A stretch of 64,000 bases of DNA, taken from positions 1,054,001 through 1,118,000 of the forward strand of contig NZ_CP063304.1 in NCBI RefSeq assembly GCF_015159595.1, given 5' to 3'. The notes under the pieces are model-generated. The model had not been told where the DNA came from, did no database searches, and saw only the letters and a program-made list of their open reading frames with translations. Positions 52,772-60,269 of this stretch are shown here, piece after piece. This DNA is from Blautia liquoris (GTDB lineage: Bacteria; Bacillota; Clostridia; Lachnospirales; Lachnospiraceae). A program made the position numbers and the translations under genes. Each line of letters begins with the position of its first letter. Position 1 is the stretch's first letter.

Positions 52772-53110
52772 CTATTTTTGCTTCATATATGCAATGTATT
52801 GATCACCCCACTCCTCTAAAGCCTTTAACACAGGAGAAAATTTTGCTCCGATCTCACTAAGTGAGTATTCTACTTTGGGGGGTATTTGAGCATATTCTGT
52901 ACGGACGATTAGTCCCTCATTTTCAAGGGCTTTTAGTTGCCTGGATAAAGTGGTGTGCGTCATTTCTTCTGGCATTTGTCGTTGAAGTTCATTGAACCGA
53001 ATGGTTCCTGCCTGCTCCAGTAGATAAATAATGTACATGGACCATTTTCCAGTCAACACTTTTTGCGATGTAACATAGGGGCATTTACCAAATAAATGTT
53101 TCTTTTCCAT
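52772..53110 (-). CDS. HxlR-family transcriptional regulator
   Basis: A 112-residue winged-helix regulator. CPYVTSQKVLTGKWSMYIIYLL (about residues 9-30) with the early Cys is diagnostic of HxlR, followed by IRFNELQRQMPEEMTHTTLSRQLKALENEGLI and YSLSEIGAKFSPVLKALEEWG. HxlR proteins often sense aldehydes, quinones or oxidants through cysteine. It is divergent from the pyridoxamine-oxidase-like gene, with a shared 130-bp region containing CAGTAT/ATACTG repeats (53129-53145), and probably controls it. Confidence 0.92.
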   Translation of the reverse strand: MEKKHLFGKCPYVTSQKVLTGKWSMYIIYLLEQAGTIRFNELQRQMPEEMTHTTLSRQLKALENEGLIVRTEYAQIPPKVEYSLSEIGAKFSPVLKALEEWGDQYIAYMKQK

Positions 53111-53171
53111 AGCGCTCTCCTTTTCTCAAGAACAGTATCAGTAAAAATACTGGTATCAATAAATATCGTAC

Positions 53172-53199
53172 TTGCGAAATTGCTCTTACAATATATAAT
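53172..53199 (+). promoter_or_regulatory. Promoter of the PNPOx-like gene
   Basis: TTGCGA at 53172-53177, 16 bp, TATAAT at 53194-53199, 41 bp before the start codon. The inverted repeat CAGTAT-N5-ATACTG near 53129-53145 lies between this promoter and the HxlR gene and is a candidate operator. Confidence 0.5.
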
Positions 53200-53240
53200 A
53201 TACTCATAGGCAAAAATTATCAAGAAGAGAAGGAGTAATC

Positions 53241-53639
53241 ATGATGAATGAAGTATTAGAATTTTTAAGAGACAGTGGAACATTTTATTTAGCAACTAAT
53301 GAAGATGGACAGCCTCGAGTTAGACCGTTTGGTGCGGTTGCAGAGTTTGAAGGGAAGCTGTATTTTGTAACGAATAATCAGAAAAATGTATATCATCAGA
53401 TGAAGAATAATGCGAATGTTGAAATCTGCGGTATGAGTAAAGGGAAATGGATCCGTGTAGCTGGCAATGTGGAAGAAGATACCCGCAGAGAAGCAAGAGT
53501 AGCGATGATGGATCAAAATACTGCTGCTTTATCGAGTATGTATACAGTAGATGATAATTTAATGACAGTATTTTGTTTTACAAGCGGTATTGCAACGATA
53601 TCATCGTTCACAGAAGAACCAAAAACAATATCACTATAA
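53241..53639 (+). CDS. Pyridoxamine 5'-phosphate oxidase-like flavin protein
   Basis: A 132-residue split-barrel FMN-binding protein. FYLATNEDGQPRVRPFGAVAEFEGKLYF (residues approx. 14-41, key FYLAT and RPFGA blocks), NNQKNVYHQMKNN and a single barrel domain are typical. Such small members bind FMN or F420/heme and reduce small organics; the reaction here is not known. Two consecutive ATGs exist; AGAAGGAG precedes them. Paired with the divergent HxlR regulator. The terminator downstream shows a monocistronic unit. Confidence 0.88.
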   Translation: MMNEVLEFLRDSGTFYLATNEDGQPRVRPFGAVAEFEGKLYFVTNNQKNVYHQMKNNANVEICGMSKGKWIRVAGNVEEDTRREARVAMMDQNTAALSSMYTVDDNLMTVFCFTSGIATISSFTEEPKTISL

Positions 53640-54644: not shown

Positions 54645-55199
54645 ATGGCAAGGAAAATTGGATTTATTGTTGGGAGTTTAAGAAAAGACTCATACAACAA
54701 AAAAATAGCAAAAAAATTTGCAACTTTATTGCCAGATGGATTTGAGGCAGTATTTCTTGAAATTGGGGAATTGCCTCTTTACAATGAAGATTTAGATGTA
54801 GAAGGGAAAATTCCGGATGCATGGACTAAGTTTAGAGAAGCAGCGAAAACAATGGATGGAGTATTCTTTTTTACCCCTGAATACAATCGTTCTCTCCCTG
54901 CAGCTATAAAAAATGCGCTAGACGTAGGATCTCGCCCGTATGGCGAAAGTGTATGGGCTAAGAAACCAGGCTTGGTGGTTAGCGCTTCTGTAGGGCCAAT
55001 TGCAGGATTTGGAGCGAACCATCATTTACGCCAGTCATTAGTATTTTTAGATGTATTGGTATTGCAACAACCCGAAGCTTATATTGGCAGTGTCCAAAAT
55101 ACTCTTAACGAACAAGGGGAATTTTTAGAAGATACAGTTGAGTTTTTCCAAAAAATCGTTGATGAGTATATTATTTTCTTTAATAAACTAACAGATTAG
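54645..55199 (+). CDS. NAD(P)H-dependent FMN reductase
   Basis: A 184-residue flavodoxin-fold oxidoreductase. GSLRKDSYNKKIAKKFATLL (residues 9-28) is the FMN phosphate loop, and FFFTPEYNRSLPAAIKNALD (about 70-89) with PEYN is the family hallmark of ArsH/YieF-type quinone or azo-reductases. The start follows GGGAGGAAAAAG. It is followed by a terminator and is transcribed alone. The preferred electron acceptor is not evident. Confidence 0.93.
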   Translation: MARKIGFIVGSLRKDSYNKKIAKKFATLLPDGFEAVFLEIGELPLYNEDLDVEGKIPDAWTKFREAAKTMDGVFFFTPEYNRSLPAAIKNALDVGSRPYGESVWAKKPGLVVSASVGPIAGFGANHHLRQSLVFLDVLVLQQPEAYIGSVQNTLNEQGEFLEDTVEFFQKIVDEYIIFFNKLTD

Positions 55200-55459: not shown

Positions 55460-56308
55460 TTATTGGTTGTTTTTTTTCATCCGATTAATGGCTGTCTCTA
55501 ATACTTTCTTTTGAATAAAATTAGGATGTTGTTTTGCAGCTATATGCAAACCATTGTTGAATTCGACCATCAGATGCCATTTATGACCTTCGCCAATTTC
55601 CTTTGGTGCATTTTCAGGAAGAAATACACCCAACTTTACTTTCATACCGGTTGGGGTGTTCGTCAATTGGTGCATGCCCATCATCTTCGTGTCTTGACCG
55701 TTTGAGCGAAGAAAAGTTTTTCCGGCCATCACGATATCTACATCTTTGCCAGGTTTAACCGGATAGTCTTCTTTGCTTCCTGGTTTCAAATCAAGATAGG
55801 ATGGATCCTGATACATGCCAAAGGTTTCGATGATTACCTGCCGCCCTGTTTTATCAGCATCAAAATAGTAATGCTCAGGATGGATTGTAGATGGCAGATA
55901 CAAATTGTTAGTCTTCATTAAACTTTGATTAAACATCAGAAATTGGATTAAAGAGATGTTTTCTGTCTCCACTTCGACATATGATTCTTGAAAATTGACT
56001 CCGGTGCGGGAAGAAGCTGCGATATCTTTCCACATCTGGTCACCTCGATCAATTTCCGGTTTGAATAGTTTCAGCGTCTTTTCTTTACCGATGTTTTCCC
56101 GGGTTTGGGCTAAAGCAACCTTAGCACTTTCAAGTGGCAGATCTAAGAGTTCCTTGAGGGATAAGGTTTTATTATTTAAGGAAATGGGAATTTCCTTTTC
56201 ATCAAATATGTGGAAAACATGGTGATAACGACTGAGTTCCATTTCCAATATCTCCTTTTCAGAAATAGTACGTCCGTCGACAGTGAACTTTATTTTAAAG
56301 TCGTTCAT
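55460..56308 (-). CDS. Uncharacterised HxxxE protein, possible phloretin/DAPG hydrolase relative (paralogue 1)
   Basis: A 282-residue soluble protein. The N-terminal part (1-100) is helical with DGRTISEKEILEMEL; the rest is beta-rich. It shares blocks with the 257-residue gene at 57300: VDG-x4-S near the start, MWKDI (about 95), a P-E-H-Y box (about 145) and the C-terminal F-P-x4-P-K-E-x3-G-H-K-x-H-L-x2-E-F. The last includes HLMVEF (H-x3-E), reminiscent of the zinc-binding end of phloroglucinol-ketone hydrolases (PhlG/phloretin hydrolase). That relation is tentative. Divergent TetR gene 137 bp away probably regulates it. Confidence 0.55.
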   Translation of the reverse strand: MNDFKIKFTVDGRTISEKEILEMELSRYHHVFHIFDEKEIPISLNNKTLSLKELLDLPLESAKVALAQTRENIGKEKTLKLFKPEIDRGDQMWKDIAASSRTGVNFQESYVEVETENISLIQFLMFNQSLMKTNNLYLPSTIHPEHYYFDADKTGRQVIIETFGMYQDPSYLDLKPGSKEDYPVKPGKDVDIVMAGKTFLRSNGQDTKMMGMHQLTNTPTGMKVKLGVFLPENAPKEIGEGHKWHLMVEFNNGLHIAAKQHPNFIQKKVLETAINRMKKNNQ

Positions 56309-56390
56309 TAGGATACCTCCATTGAAATTTATTTTGTAACTAAATTATAAGATTATACATGCAATATGACAACAACATAGAACGGCTACT

Positions 56391-56422
56391 TGTAGAGTAA
56401 AGCAACATCCTGTAGAATAAAG
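56391..56422 (+). promoter_or_regulatory. Direct repeats upstream of TetR gene 1
   Basis: TGTAGAGTAAAG (56391-56402) and TGTAGAATAAAG (56411-56422) are spaced exactly 20 bp, two helical turns, in the divergent intergenic region, 24 bp before the TetR start. They are candidate binding sites for that regulator. Confidence 0.5.
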
Positions 56423-56445
56423 ATATCTATAAAAGGAAGGCGGAC

Positions 56446-56997
56446 ATGAAAATGGCGGATTTACGATTTGAAAGAACCGAGCAAATGCTTCAACAAAGTT
56501 TTTTGAAGTTACTTGAGACAACACCCTTTCATGATATTTCTATTGCAAAGCTTGCAAAAAAGAGTTTGATTGACCGAACGACATTTTACGCTCATTACGA
56601 AAATATTTACGAATTGGCAGAAAAACTCATCGATCAGTATCTGGAGCATTTTGCAGATGCTTTTGAACAGAATATAAAAAAAAGAGAACAAGAGAAGAAA
56701 TTCGACAGTTATTCTTTCTTTGATGAGGAATTGACTGCTTATTTGATTGGAAATCGAAAAAAAATCATGCTTGTCCGTGCCCTTAATTTGGGTATGAATA
56801 GTTTCGATGCGAAACTGCGCAGTCTGTTTAAGCGCGAATATGCGAAAACATTAAATGTTTCTGAAAATGCTTTCACTATTTATTTGGTTGTCAATTTGGC
56901 GATGAGCAATATTGATTTTATTTTAGAGAAGCAGCGAGTTCCATCAAAGAAAGAGCTGAAGAAGGGACTGATTAAAATCGAAGAATTTTTGTCTTGA
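56446..56997 (+). CDS. TetR-family transcriptional regulator (1)
   Basis: A 183-residue regulator. The N-terminal helix-turn-helix (about residues 8-54) reads ERTEQMLQQSFLKLLETTPF, then ISIAKLAKKSLIDRTTFYAHYENIYEL (split by helix 3); the C-terminal part is all helical and variable, and binds the ligand. It is divergent from the HxxxE protein gene, the usual arrangement for a repressor controlling its neighbour. It converges on the small gene at 57058 with a shared terminator. Confidence 0.92.
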   Translation: MKMADLRFERTEQMLQQSFLKLLETTPFHDISIAKLAKKSLIDRTTFYAHYENIYELAEKLIDQYLEHFADAFEQNIKKREQEKKFDSYSFFDEELTAYLIGNRKKIMLVRALNLGMNSFDAKLRSLFKREYAKTLNVSENAFTIYLVVNLAMSNIDFILEKQRVPSKKELKKGLIKIEEFLS

Positions 56998-57016
56998 TTC
57001 TGCTGTACGCAGTATA

Positions 57017-57055
57017 AAAATATCCCCACAGGAAGCTGTCCTGTAGGGATATTTT
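57017..57055. terminator. Bidirectional terminator between convergent genes
   Basis: AAAATATCCCCACAGGA (57017-57033) pairs with TCCTGTAGGGATATTTT (57039-57055) with one C-A mismatch and a 5-nt loop. A-rich and T-rich flanks serve both strands. Confidence 0.88.
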
Positions 57056-57057
57056 AA

Positions 57058-57273
57058 CTACTCCAGTGTACACAATTCATCTACCATAGCTTCAAATTTC
57101 TTTTTGATGGGAGGCAATGGAATCATATTTTTAAGTTCTCCAAGTGGTTTGTTCTTCATCATTCCTACAGATGGGCGGTCTAACAGGCCACCCAAATGTT
57201 TTCTTGCCACTTCTGTACCTTCTGTGGTCTCTAATACTTCTGCAAATGTGCTTTCTTCTGTGAATTTTGCCAT
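57058..57273 (-). CDS. Small helical protein (71 residues), function unknown
   Basis: ATG at 57273 is 7 nt after GGAGGA. The protein begins MAKFTEESTFAEVLETTEG and continues with a HLGGLLDRPSV block and a KFEAMVDEL end. It is predicted to be three to four short helices. The T-x2-E-V-L ... H-L-G-G ... P pattern resembles small helical modules seen in Clostridia as stand-alone or appended domains; I do not know their role. It follows the 257-residue gene with a 26-bp gap and is probably co-transcribed, so it may be an accessory subunit. Confidence 0.65.
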   Translation of the reverse strand: MAKFTEESTFAEVLETTEGTEVARKHLGGLLDRPSVGMMKNKPLGELKNMIPLPPIKKKFEAMVDELCTLE

Positions 57274-57299
57274 AATGTTGTCCTCCATTTCTGATTCAA

Positions 57300-58073
57300 T
57301 TAAAGTTCTTCAGCTGCTATTTTCACAAGACCGAGGAATTCGCTGGCCAGATGTATCTTATGACCATCTACAAGTTCTTTAGGAGTACCTTGTGGGAAAC
57401 AACAGGTGAGCAGCATCTCAATTCCCTCGTCTGTATCCTTGATATAGTGTGCTGCCAAAGTGTGCATATCGGTTCCATCGCCAAGCTGTGAATACCCAAT
57501 TGTGAATGGCAGATAATCCTCAGGAATATCCAGTGGAATTTTAATGTCAGGCGCAAACATGATTCTCATTAGATTAGGTCCGCCAAACATCCCCATTCCT
57601 TCAAAGCCTGCCGGTACCTCCTCAGTCATGACATGTCCGTAGTGTTCAGGATTGGCAGCCAGTGATGAATCGTCACCCGCCATAGCGAGCATCAGCCCTT
57701 CGCCTAAGTCATCCATGGTAACACCAGTGACCTTCATATGGGTAACACAGGGCTGATAGGGATCGCCCTCCTTATAATTGGAAATGATATCTTTCCACAT
57801 TTTGTCTGTTTTCGTAATTTCATCTTTGTATAGTTCTAAAAGCTTATCGGTTCCCAATTTTACCTTGGTTTCTAAATTAAGACGGGCAGCATCTGTTTTG
57901 CTTAAGAAATCAATGTCGGTATAAGAAAGAGATTTCCCATTGTCTGTAACCTCTGCGCCAAGATAGATCATCTCATGTAAAACATGCTTATTTCGTTCAA
58001 ATTCAAATGCTTCAATCATCTCTTGTGAGTAGGAATTGCCGTCAATATCAAACTCTACTTTGTAGTCTTTCAA
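57300..58073 (-). CDS. Uncharacterised HxxxE protein, possible phloretin/DAPG hydrolase relative (paralogue 2)
   Basis: A 257-residue soluble paralogue of the gene at 55460. Shared blocks: DIDGNSYSQEMIEAFEFER at the start, KMWKDI (about residue 92), NPEHYGH (about 142), and FPQGTPKELVDGHKIHLASEF (about 227-247) with HLASEF (H-x3-E). Overall identity is low (roughly a quarter by eye), so these are old paralogues and may differ in substrate. It carries a Gly/Met-rich loop (GFEGMGMFGG) not in paralogue 1. The start follows AAGGAGGTACG. Divergent from the second TetR gene, with a 157-bp shared region. Confidence 0.55.
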   Translation of the reverse strand: MKDYKVEFDIDGNSYSQEMIEAFEFERNKHVLHEMIYLGAEVTDNGKSLSYTDIDFLSKTDAARLNLETKVKLGTDKLLELYKDEITKTDKMWKDIISNYKEGDPYQPCVTHMKVTGVTMDDLGEGLMLAMAGDDSSLAANPEHYGHVMTEEVPAGFEGMGMFGGPNLMRIMFAPDIKIPLDIPEDYLPFTIGYSQLGDGTDMHTLAAHYIKDTDEGIEMLLTCCFPQGTPKELVDGHKIHLASEFLGLVKIAAEEL

Positions 58074-58230
58074 ATCGTACCTCCTTAAAATATATCATAG
58101 ACAAATTGTATCACATCAGTATATAATAACAAGGGGATTACCTGAGTCAATATCATCAATTATGTATCATGTTTTAGTTGAGACTAACTTCAAAACATTT
58201 ATAAAATAGATAAGGGGAAACAGGAAAGAC

Positions 58231-58785
58231 ATGGATAAAAGAGTGATTGAAAATGAAAGAGTAAAAAAAAGTATTGAAAAAGCTTTGTTTACTTTATTAA
58301 AAAACAAATCGTTTTCAGAAATAACGGTCTCTGATATCATCAGAGTTTCTGGCGTGGCAAGAGCATCTTACTATCGGAATTTTGAATCAAAAGAAGGAAT
58401 TATTGAGGCATACATGGAGCGTCAGCGCAAGGAAGTTGCCCATATGATTACGTTCTCAGAATCTGTTGCGGATATATTTAATGAGGCAAAATTAGTCATG
58501 GCACTCCAACATTATTTGCAGCAAAAGGATTATATCCTGTTATTGTATGACAATGGATTTGGAACCTTCCTTCAGGAAGATATGAATCGGTTTGCGGAGC
58601 TTAACATCGGAGATATGCCACAAAAGTCTATGGAACGTTATCGTCTATATTTTCTATCGGGGGCAATGTTTAATACAACCATTCAGTGGTTGAAAAGCGA
58701 CGCTGTCGAATCGCCGAGGCAGATGGCAAGAGCTTTTATAAACATGTTGTCAAATAAGAATTCATACACGGAGGAAGAATCATAA
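58231..58785 (+). CDS. TetR-family transcriptional regulator (2)
   Basis: A 184-residue regulator with a helix-turn-helix at residues 10-56 (KKSIEKALFTLLKNKSF then ITVSDIIRVSGVARASYYRNFESKEGII in two helices). The ligand domain ends in an AcrR/TetR_C-like helix set. It is divergent from paralogue 2, repeating the arrangement of TetR gene 1 with paralogue 1. The 281-bp gap after it holds a short 24-codon frame at 58903 of doubtful coding value and promoter-like GTTAT/ATAAC repeats before the flavodiiron gene. Confidence 0.92.
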   Translation: MDKRVIENERVKKSIEKALFTLLKNKSFSEITVSDIIRVSGVARASYYRNFESKEGIIEAYMERQRKEVAHMITFSESVADIFNEAKLVMALQHYLQQKDYILLLYDNGFGTFLQEDMNRFAELNIGDMPQKSMERYRLYFLSGAMFNTTIQWLKSDAVESPRQMARAFINMLSNKNSYTEEES

Positions 58786-59066: not shown

Positions 59067-60269
59067 ATGGGTAAAAAAGTTTCAAATCACGTAACCTGGG
59101 TAGGAAAAACAGACTGGGAGCTGAAAAGCTTTCATGGAAATGAACTCTCAACTTATGATGGATCCTCATACAATGCATACCTTGTACGTGGCAGTGAAAA
59201 AACAGTTTTGATTGATACAGTCTGGCAGCCATATGATAAAGAGTTTGTATCCCGTCTGCAAGAGGAGGTTGATCTTTCTTCTATTGACTATATTGTGATG
59301 AATCACAATGAAATCGACCATTCTGGTTCTTTACCGGAACTGATGCGAGAGATCCCGGATACGCCGATCTACTGCACAGCGAAAGGTGAGAGCATCATCA
59401 AAGGACACTATCATCCGGAAGATTGGAACTTTGTAAACGTGAAGACAGGTGGCACCTTAGATCTCGGTGATGTTACGCTTACATTCGTGGAGGCACCGAT
59501 GCTCCACTGGCCGGATACAATGTTCACCTATATGGATGCCGGAGAAGGCGAACATATTCTATTTTCCAATGATGGTTTTGGTCAGCATTTTGCTTCGGAA
59601 TCCTTGTTTGATGAGGATGTAAATAAAGAAGAAGTTTACCATGAGGCGATGAAGTATTGGGCAAACATTCTAAACCTCTATGCGAACCAGGCAAAGAAAA
59701 AAATCAATGAAATTCTCGCGATGAATCTGCCACTTGATATGATTGCACCGAGTCACGGAATCATCTGGAAGTCAAATCCGACGGAGATTGTTGAAAAATA
59801 TCTGGAATGGGCGGATGCTTATCAGGAGAATCAGGTCACAATCATGTATGATACCATGTGGAATTCCACACGAAAAATCGGAGAGGCAATTGCACGGGGG
59901 ATATACAAAGTAAGGCCGGATATTACGATCAAACTTTTTAATGCCAGCAAAGAGGATAAGAACGATATCGTGACAGAAGTATTTCGATCCAAAGCAGTTC
60001 TGGTCGGATCGCCAGCCATCAACTATGGATTTATGCATTCCATTGGAGGAATGCTGGAGATGATCAAGGGACTTCGCTTTAAGAAGAAAAAAGCGGCAGC
60101 TTTCGGAAGCTACGGTTGGAGCGGCGGTGTAGTTAAACAGATGACTGAAGCACTAAAGGGCTGTGGATTTGAAATCGTAAATGACGGATTCGAGAGAATC
60201 TGGGTGCCGGACGAAGGTGTTCTCGCCGAAGCAGAAGAATACGGAAAACAGTTCGCAGAGAACTTATAA
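59067..60269 (+). CDS. FprA-type flavodiiron protein (NO/O2 reductase)
   Basis: A 400-residue A-type flavoprotein that reduces oxygen or nitric oxide to protect anaerobes. The beta-lactamase-like domain (1-250) binds the di-iron centre through HNEIDHSG (H-x-E-x-D-H, about residues 80-87), His in MLHWPDTMF and His in APSHGIIW. The flavodoxin domain (about 258-400) has YDTMWNSTRKIGEAIA for FMN phosphate and GSYGWSGGVVKQM. The start is preceded by GGAGGC. GTTAT/ATAAC half-sites occur four times at 58982-59030. A terminator follows. Confidence 0.95.
   Translation: MGKKVSNHVTWVGKTDWELKSFHGNELSTYDGSSYNAYLVRGSEKTVLIDTVWQPYDKEFVSRLQEEVDLSSIDYIVMNHNEIDHSGSLPELMREIPDTPIYCTAKGESIIKGHYHPEDWNFVNVKTGGTLDLGDVTLTFVEAPMLHWPDTMFTYMDAGEGEHILFSNDGFGQHFASESLFDEDVNKEEVYHEAMKYWANILNLYANQAKKKINEILAMNLPLDMIAPSHGIIWKSNPTEIVEKYLEWADAYQENQVTIMYDTMWNSTRKIGEAIARGIYKVRPDITIKLFNASKEDKNDIVTEVFRSKAVLVGSPAINYGFMHSIGGMLEMIKGLRFKKKKAAAFGSYGWSGGVVKQMTEALKGCGFEIVNDGFERIWVPDEGVLAEAEEYGKQFAENL

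Follow-up and report, generated by a model that had tools for sequence, protein, structure and literature searches.

The 64,000-nucleotide window of the Blautia liquoris genome analysed here (contig NZ_CP063304.1, positions 1,054,001 to 1,118,000) contains two genes for related proteins, A and B, each of which is divergent from its own TetR-type regulator gene. On balance, the two modules are probably self-contained, inducible sensor-hydrolase cassettes with a chemistry resembling that of PhlG, a zinc-dependent enzyme with a Bet v1-like fold that cleaves 2,4-diacetylphloroglucinol (DAPG) into monoacetylphloroglucinol and acetate (PMC8003664, review). This reading is suggested by the predicted fold of both proteins, by histidine and glutamate residues in register with the zinc site of PhlG, and by the pairing of the genes with regulators. 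The locus, with lengths in base pairs (bp) or residues, comprises the following features.

55460-56308, minus strand: protein A, 282 residues, a PhlG-like putative zinc hydrolase of the START/Bet v1 fold, with putative ligands H146, E161, H245 and E249 (A numbering).
56309-56445, no strand: divergent regulatory region of A and TetR1, with a sigma-70-like promoter pointing at A (TTGTCA-17-TATAAT, 56372 to 56344 on the minus strand).
56411-56421, plus strand: TGTAGAATAAA, an 11-bp motif of TetR1-type loci and candidate TetR1 operator, overlapping the -10 region of TetR1.
56446-56997, plus strand: TetR1, 183 residues, a divergent TetR-type regulator.
57058-57273, minus strand: a 71-residue protein directly 3' of B, without a known family, kept at the same position in Weissella and Lacticaseibacillus.
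57300-58073, minus strand: protein B, 257 residues, a PhlG-like putative zinc hydrolase of the START/Bet v1 fold, with putative ligands H144, E158, H241 and E245, plus H209 and H238.
58074-58230, no strand: divergent regulatory region of B and TetR2, with promoter-like sites that face B (58150 to 58123, minus strand) and TetR2 (58098-58127, plus strand), and with TGTATCACAT, which is also present in Weissella.
58231-58785, plus strand: TetR2, 184 residues, with the domains TetR_N and TetR_C_8.

The 282- and 257-residue open reading frames (ORFs) lie where a preliminary description of this DNA had placed them, and each faces its own TetR gene as described there, across 137 bp (A/TetR1) or 157 bp (B/TetR2). 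B starts at a TTG codon with an AAGGAGG site just 5' of it. The promoter-like sites given above come from a scan of both intergenic regions that was near chance level overall. A and B are homologous over nearly their full length (26% identity over 267 columns, E 3e-24, far above chance), and all the shared sequence blocks named earlier were found in both. Across the wider family, PEHY/F and GHxxHLxxEF were retained, whereas MWKDI was not (the W alone is widely kept, and the Streptomyces members are without it).

AlphaFold models of the two proteins, built from relatives, had a mean predicted local distance difference test score of 90.8 for B and 89.1 for A. The best PDB matches of both were phloretin and DAPG hydrolases, as the preliminary description had guessed from the letters, and not proteins of an unrelated fold. 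For B, the Z scores were 10.5 (5xey), 10.4 (3hwp) and 10.0 (5xe5), with the next entry at 9.0, while the three hydrolase entries reached 12.1, 11.6 and 11.4 for A, with the next at 9.5. Similarly, PhlG was the sole Foldseek match of B with E < 1e-3 (1.8e-4), and phloretin hydrolase was matched with a probability of 1.00. The three hydrolase structures gave the longest alignments (170-183 residues) and also covered the N-terminal part (residues 15/18-256 of B and 15-263 of A); for B they were the only top rows to align most of that part, which a few other rows also took in. The margin of the hydrolases above other Bet v1/START matches was only 1-2.6 Z units. The Bet v1/START core is common, and Z scores of 8-9 to PR-10 proteins are to be expected. 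START/Bet v1-like aromatase-cyclases and PR-10 proteins indeed share the core helix-grip fold (Z about 7.4-9), but they scored lower, mostly with residues 102-257 alone aligned, and we know of no HExHxxxE-type metal site in these proteins. Beta-lactamase rows in the Foldseek output were rejected (probability under 0.45, root mean square deviation 18-19). As modelled, A and B share the fold of PhlG and phloretin hydrolase, including its helical N-terminal part.

Conservation within the family converges on a putative metal site. H144, E158, H238, H241 and E245 (B numbering here and below) are invariant in 45 of 45 relatives, and this includes the HxxxE motif (H241-x3-E245) singled out in the preliminary description; beyond P142, G161, P227 and P231, likewise conserved in all 45, little else is kept. 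The zinc ligands of PhlG, which we take to be H129, E160, H270 and E274, consistent with the 3hwp sequence, and its substrate-positioning residues, presumably Tyr121, Asn132 and Tyr229, are numbered as reportedly given in the structural work of He et al. 2010. When the family profile was aligned with a profile of the PF18089 (DAPG_hydrolase) set, H144, E158, H209, H241 and E245 fell on H129, E160, H214, H270 and E274 of PhlG. This alignment scored 35.7, whereas 100 column shuffles gave 13.9 +/- 2.5 (24.7 at most) and reversing the profile gave 12.8, and with 45 sequences it scored 36.1, against 13.5 +/- 1.9 (maximum 18.3). As hhalign itself gave a probability of just 40-43%, the evidence from sequence by itself is modest. 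Independently, the last residue pairs in the structural alignments are B256-3hwp285 and A263-3hwp288, and these offsets of 29 and 25 are exactly those that lay the HxxxE motif on H270-x3-E274, provided that the last helix is ungapped; PhlG numbering is the 3hwp sequence index minus 8. By profile and model alike, the His/Glu/His/Glu residues of A and B are thus in register with the zinc site of PhlG, from which we infer that both proteins bind zinc and act as hydrolases.

The likeness to the PhlG system extends to regulation, since the TetR-type repressor PhlH, which is encoded next to phlG, represses that gene until DAPG binds (PMC8003664). By analogy, each TetR of the locus would bind the shared divergent promoter region and repress both its own gene and the facing hydrolase gene, until a small hydrophobic compound that has entered the cell binds to the TetR, so that the hydrolase is made. 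The enzyme would combine the helical N-terminal part with a START/Bet v1-like cavity holding one metal ion, gripped by a pair of residues on a beta-hairpin (H144 and E158) and a pair on the C-terminal helix (H241 and E245). Metal-bound water could then attack a carbonyl of the ligand and bring about cleavage, most likely by stripping an aromatic or beta-diketone-like compound of an acyl group, in the way that PhlG acts on diacetylphloroglucinol; both hydrolysis as such and the kind of bond cut are proposed from this parallel. As A and B are unlike in sequence and in regulator, they probably serve different compounds. Detoxification, in the manner of PhlH and PhlG, is the most likely purpose of the cassettes.

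The comparison that the preliminary description had proposed, with the DAPG hydrolase family, left A and B unmatched by PF18089, and nothing in the whole window genome matched this profile at E <= 10. Pfam and NCBIfam contain no family for A or B; matches to RapA_C and DUF3158 were set aside as chance (weak, in single members, below cut-off and not seen in relatives). R-Y-x2-W, which precedes the first His and is invariant in the PF18089 set, is missing from the family. This also separates A and B from phloretin hydrolase (Phy; Eubacterium ramulus, and Mycobacterium abscessus 5xe5/5xey), which is otherwise their best or second-best structural match and has the same ligand positions, with 10-12% identity over the structural alignment and no Phy/DAPG profile match. 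Compared with PhlG, the core of A and B is more compact, and they have no substrate biosynthetic cluster nearby.

Several observations weigh against PhlG-like chemistry under dedicated control. Neither PF18089 nor any other curated family matched 26 diverse members even at E 1, and searches of PDB sequences with A, B and profiles of 9 and 26 members returned nothing relevant and did not reach PhlG. Tyr121, Asn132 and Tyr229 of PhlG are not kept; counted from the aligned H144 and H209, the corresponding residues are S136, H147 and C224 in B and L138, F149 and V228 in A. The first His and first Glu are 14 residues apart in the family but 31 in PhlG, and H209, the counterpart of the extra His214 of PhlG, is kept in 44 of the 45 relatives, the exception being S_Alt3. 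His238, three residues ahead of His241, is absent from PhlG and Phy, which suggests that the chemistry may differ from that of PhlG. Finally, the A-type hydrolases of lactobacilli are accompanied by several unrelated TetR subfamilies or by no TetR, so the pairing is not strict and regulator partners have therefore apparently been swapped. Given the absent PF18089 match, the missing substrate-positioning residues and the extra invariant His238, A and B therefore belong to a separate, undescribed sister family that is PhlG-like, and are not to be filed as members of the DAPG hydrolases.

These same features lend appreciable, though clearly lesser, weight to a different chemistry on the same fold and metal site, in which A and B would be metal-dependent esterases or lactonases, decarboxylases, cyclases or isomerases that use His238 together with His241, still under TetR control. 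Besides the invariance of H238 and the missing substrate-positioning residues, it is in keeping with this that START-fold relatives include cyclases and that the relatives in lactobacilli are clustered with genes of the CrtC-like and Pyr4-like families, whose names refer to hydration and terpene cyclisation; yet the nearest solved relatives of the fold are all C-C hydrolases, with the same four ligand positions. A non-catalytic START-like protein that sequesters a hydrophobic ligand or presents it, perhaps to its TetR, appears improbable. Many START/Bet v1 proteins only bind ligands, and the genes are often simple two-gene units, but five strictly invariant His and Glu residues, with little else conserved, are typical of a metal-dependent enzyme.

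It is more doubtful still that A and B are true phloretin or DAPG hydrolases for the breakdown of dietary flavonoids, as the preliminary description had supposed. The fold and the equivalent zinc-ligand positions would agree with such a role, and true phloretin-hydrolase homologues (PF18089) occur in the same bacterial family, the Lachnospiraceae. Their carriers, however, are different genomes from those with the A/B family, no PF18089 match was obtained, and there are genomes with three or four divergent paralogues. The flavonoid or phloretin substrate was left unsupported because the substrate-positioning residues of PhlG and R-Y-x2-W are absent; flavonoid degradation by A or B is a possibility without specific support.

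A further, highly speculative proposal, inspired by the CrtC-like and Pyr4-like neighbours, is that the cassettes inducibly inactivate prenylated acylphloroglucinols and related plant antimicrobials, of which the hop bitter acids are the most familiar, both in lactobacilli and, as a result of transfer, in gut Lachnospiraceae. The PhlG-like hydrolase would take off the acyl chain, while the CrtC-like and Pyr4-like proteins might act on the prenyl chains by hydration or cyclisation. In lactobacilli, 11 of 34 family genes had a CrtC-like gene within 10 kb, where about 0.6 would be expected (p 3e-5, with 6 independent clusters), and in three of the five genomes that have a Pyr4-like gene, this membrane protein was encoded within 3 kb of a family gene. 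The latter belong to the Pyr4-like transmembrane terpene-cyclase family (PF25129) and are located at L004 4539-5222, L005 9533-10165 and G647:C9 38310-38810. CrtC-like lipocalin genes were noted near family genes in Weissella (L030/L036), at L061 and in genomes G849, G783, G647 and G806. By name, both families act on isoprenoid chains, although what distant relatives are called is weak evidence. In the window genome, a Pyr4-like gene lies at 1972823, far from the family genes, and CrtC is absent. A literature search on hop degradation, or on CrtC and Pyr4 in lactobacilli, yielded nothing useful. An aquaporin, considered as a common partner of a Streptomyces member and the Weissella D copy, was dropped, the Weissella gene being, by eye, part of a glycerol operon (glpF-tpiA-glpD-glpK).

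Most family genes lie beside a TetR of their own. Of 45 such genes, 29 have a divergent TetR as their direct neighbour and 3 adjoin a TetR in another orientation; a TetR lies one or two genes away in 2 cases, a MarR or HxlR regulator next door in 5, and 6 have no neighbouring regulator. TetR2 passes the Pfam cut-offs (TetR_N 28.1 bits against 24; TetR_C_8 also passes), whereas TetR1 falls below with TetR_N (16.3 bits), its N-terminus matching NCBIfam DhaS (TIGR02366, E 1.8e-7); the TetRs of lactobacilli were called with a custom profile instead of Pfam. Hydrolase and TetR distances were correlated over 13 pairs (Mantel r 0.92, p 5e-5, with species relatedness not removed), and control of A and B by their TetRs is strongly indicated. 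Five TetR1-type intergenic regions contain an exact copy of TGTAGAATAAA, among them one with a TetR that is just 40% identical, while the longest common word in 500 shuffles was 7. In four further TetR1-type loci the motif was exact in one and had one mismatch in another, giving six exact and one single-mismatch occurrence over nine loci. Every other locus with a divergent ORF, including those of A-type hydrolases with other TetRs, differed from it by two mismatches or more. The motif, which overlaps a -10-like TAGAAT, therefore tracks the TetR1-type regulator and not the hydrolase, as expected of an operator, and is probably that of TetR1. A search for palindromes revealed no clear operator for TetR2. 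Efflux genes of the ABC-2 or DHA2 type adjoin four of the six regulator-less genes; A-type genes without a TetR (L045, L047, L051 and L048) lie directly 3' of ABC-2 permease or DHA2-type efflux genes, neighbours that would fit a function directed against a toxic compound.

The family is centred on the Lactobacillaceae, the family of the Weissella relative (36 of 301 genomes), and is sporadic in the Lachnospiraceae, to which the window belongs (6 of 397), which makes the gut-bacterial capacity first proposed a narrow one. In two broad phylum samples the window genome was the only carrier found, and distant members were located on Streptomyces plasmids. The window genome has three cassettes, the third of which, at 2.27 Mb, pairs protein C (G000:C1:2271998-2272774; L002, L035) with a divergent TetR of its own. 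A maximum-likelihood tree nests each of A, B and C in a well-supported clade with lactobacilli, so that these clades are shared between the two groups. Together with the 86% identity of B to a protein from Weissella, this makes horizontal transfer the simplest account, and such transfer is strongly indicated. Lacticaseibacillus daqingensis has both modules together, namely a B orthologue with the 71-residue gene and a second cassette with a TetR1-like regulator. In the related genome G038, A and TetR1 are intact, B is lost, and TetR2 and the 71-residue gene are remnants; this copy (L040 5864-6867) looks like a decayed island in which TetR2 has an internal deletion.

To our knowledge, Bet v1-fold hydrolases of acyl-phenol C-C bonds are rare, with few characterised. 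If PhlG-like chemistry is correct, the family would be a second, unnamed branch of this group, found in lactobacilli and gut-type Clostridia, its copies usually equipped with their own chemical sensor. The inducer of a cassette should then point to the substrate of its hydrolase, a pairing that makes the reading testable, and the TetRs would form a set of sensors apparently moving between lactobacilli and Lachnospiraceae.

The 71-residue ORF, which the preliminary description had not listed, was found only behind B-type genes, in three genera. It has no family in Pfam or NCBIfam and no relatives on the plasmids searched, and elsewhere among 150 genomes of the family only the 20-residue remnant in G038 was found. 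C adjoins genes for a flavodoxin, a flavin reductase and a large protein with glycosidase-like sequence, and flavin reductase- or flavodoxin-like genes also occur near A (54645-55199), L075 and L067. On the flanks of the locus (52772-53639 and 59067-60269 of the window), an HxlR-like regulator divergent from a pyridoxamine-oxidase-like protein and an A-type flavoprotein-like gene were recognised by eye.

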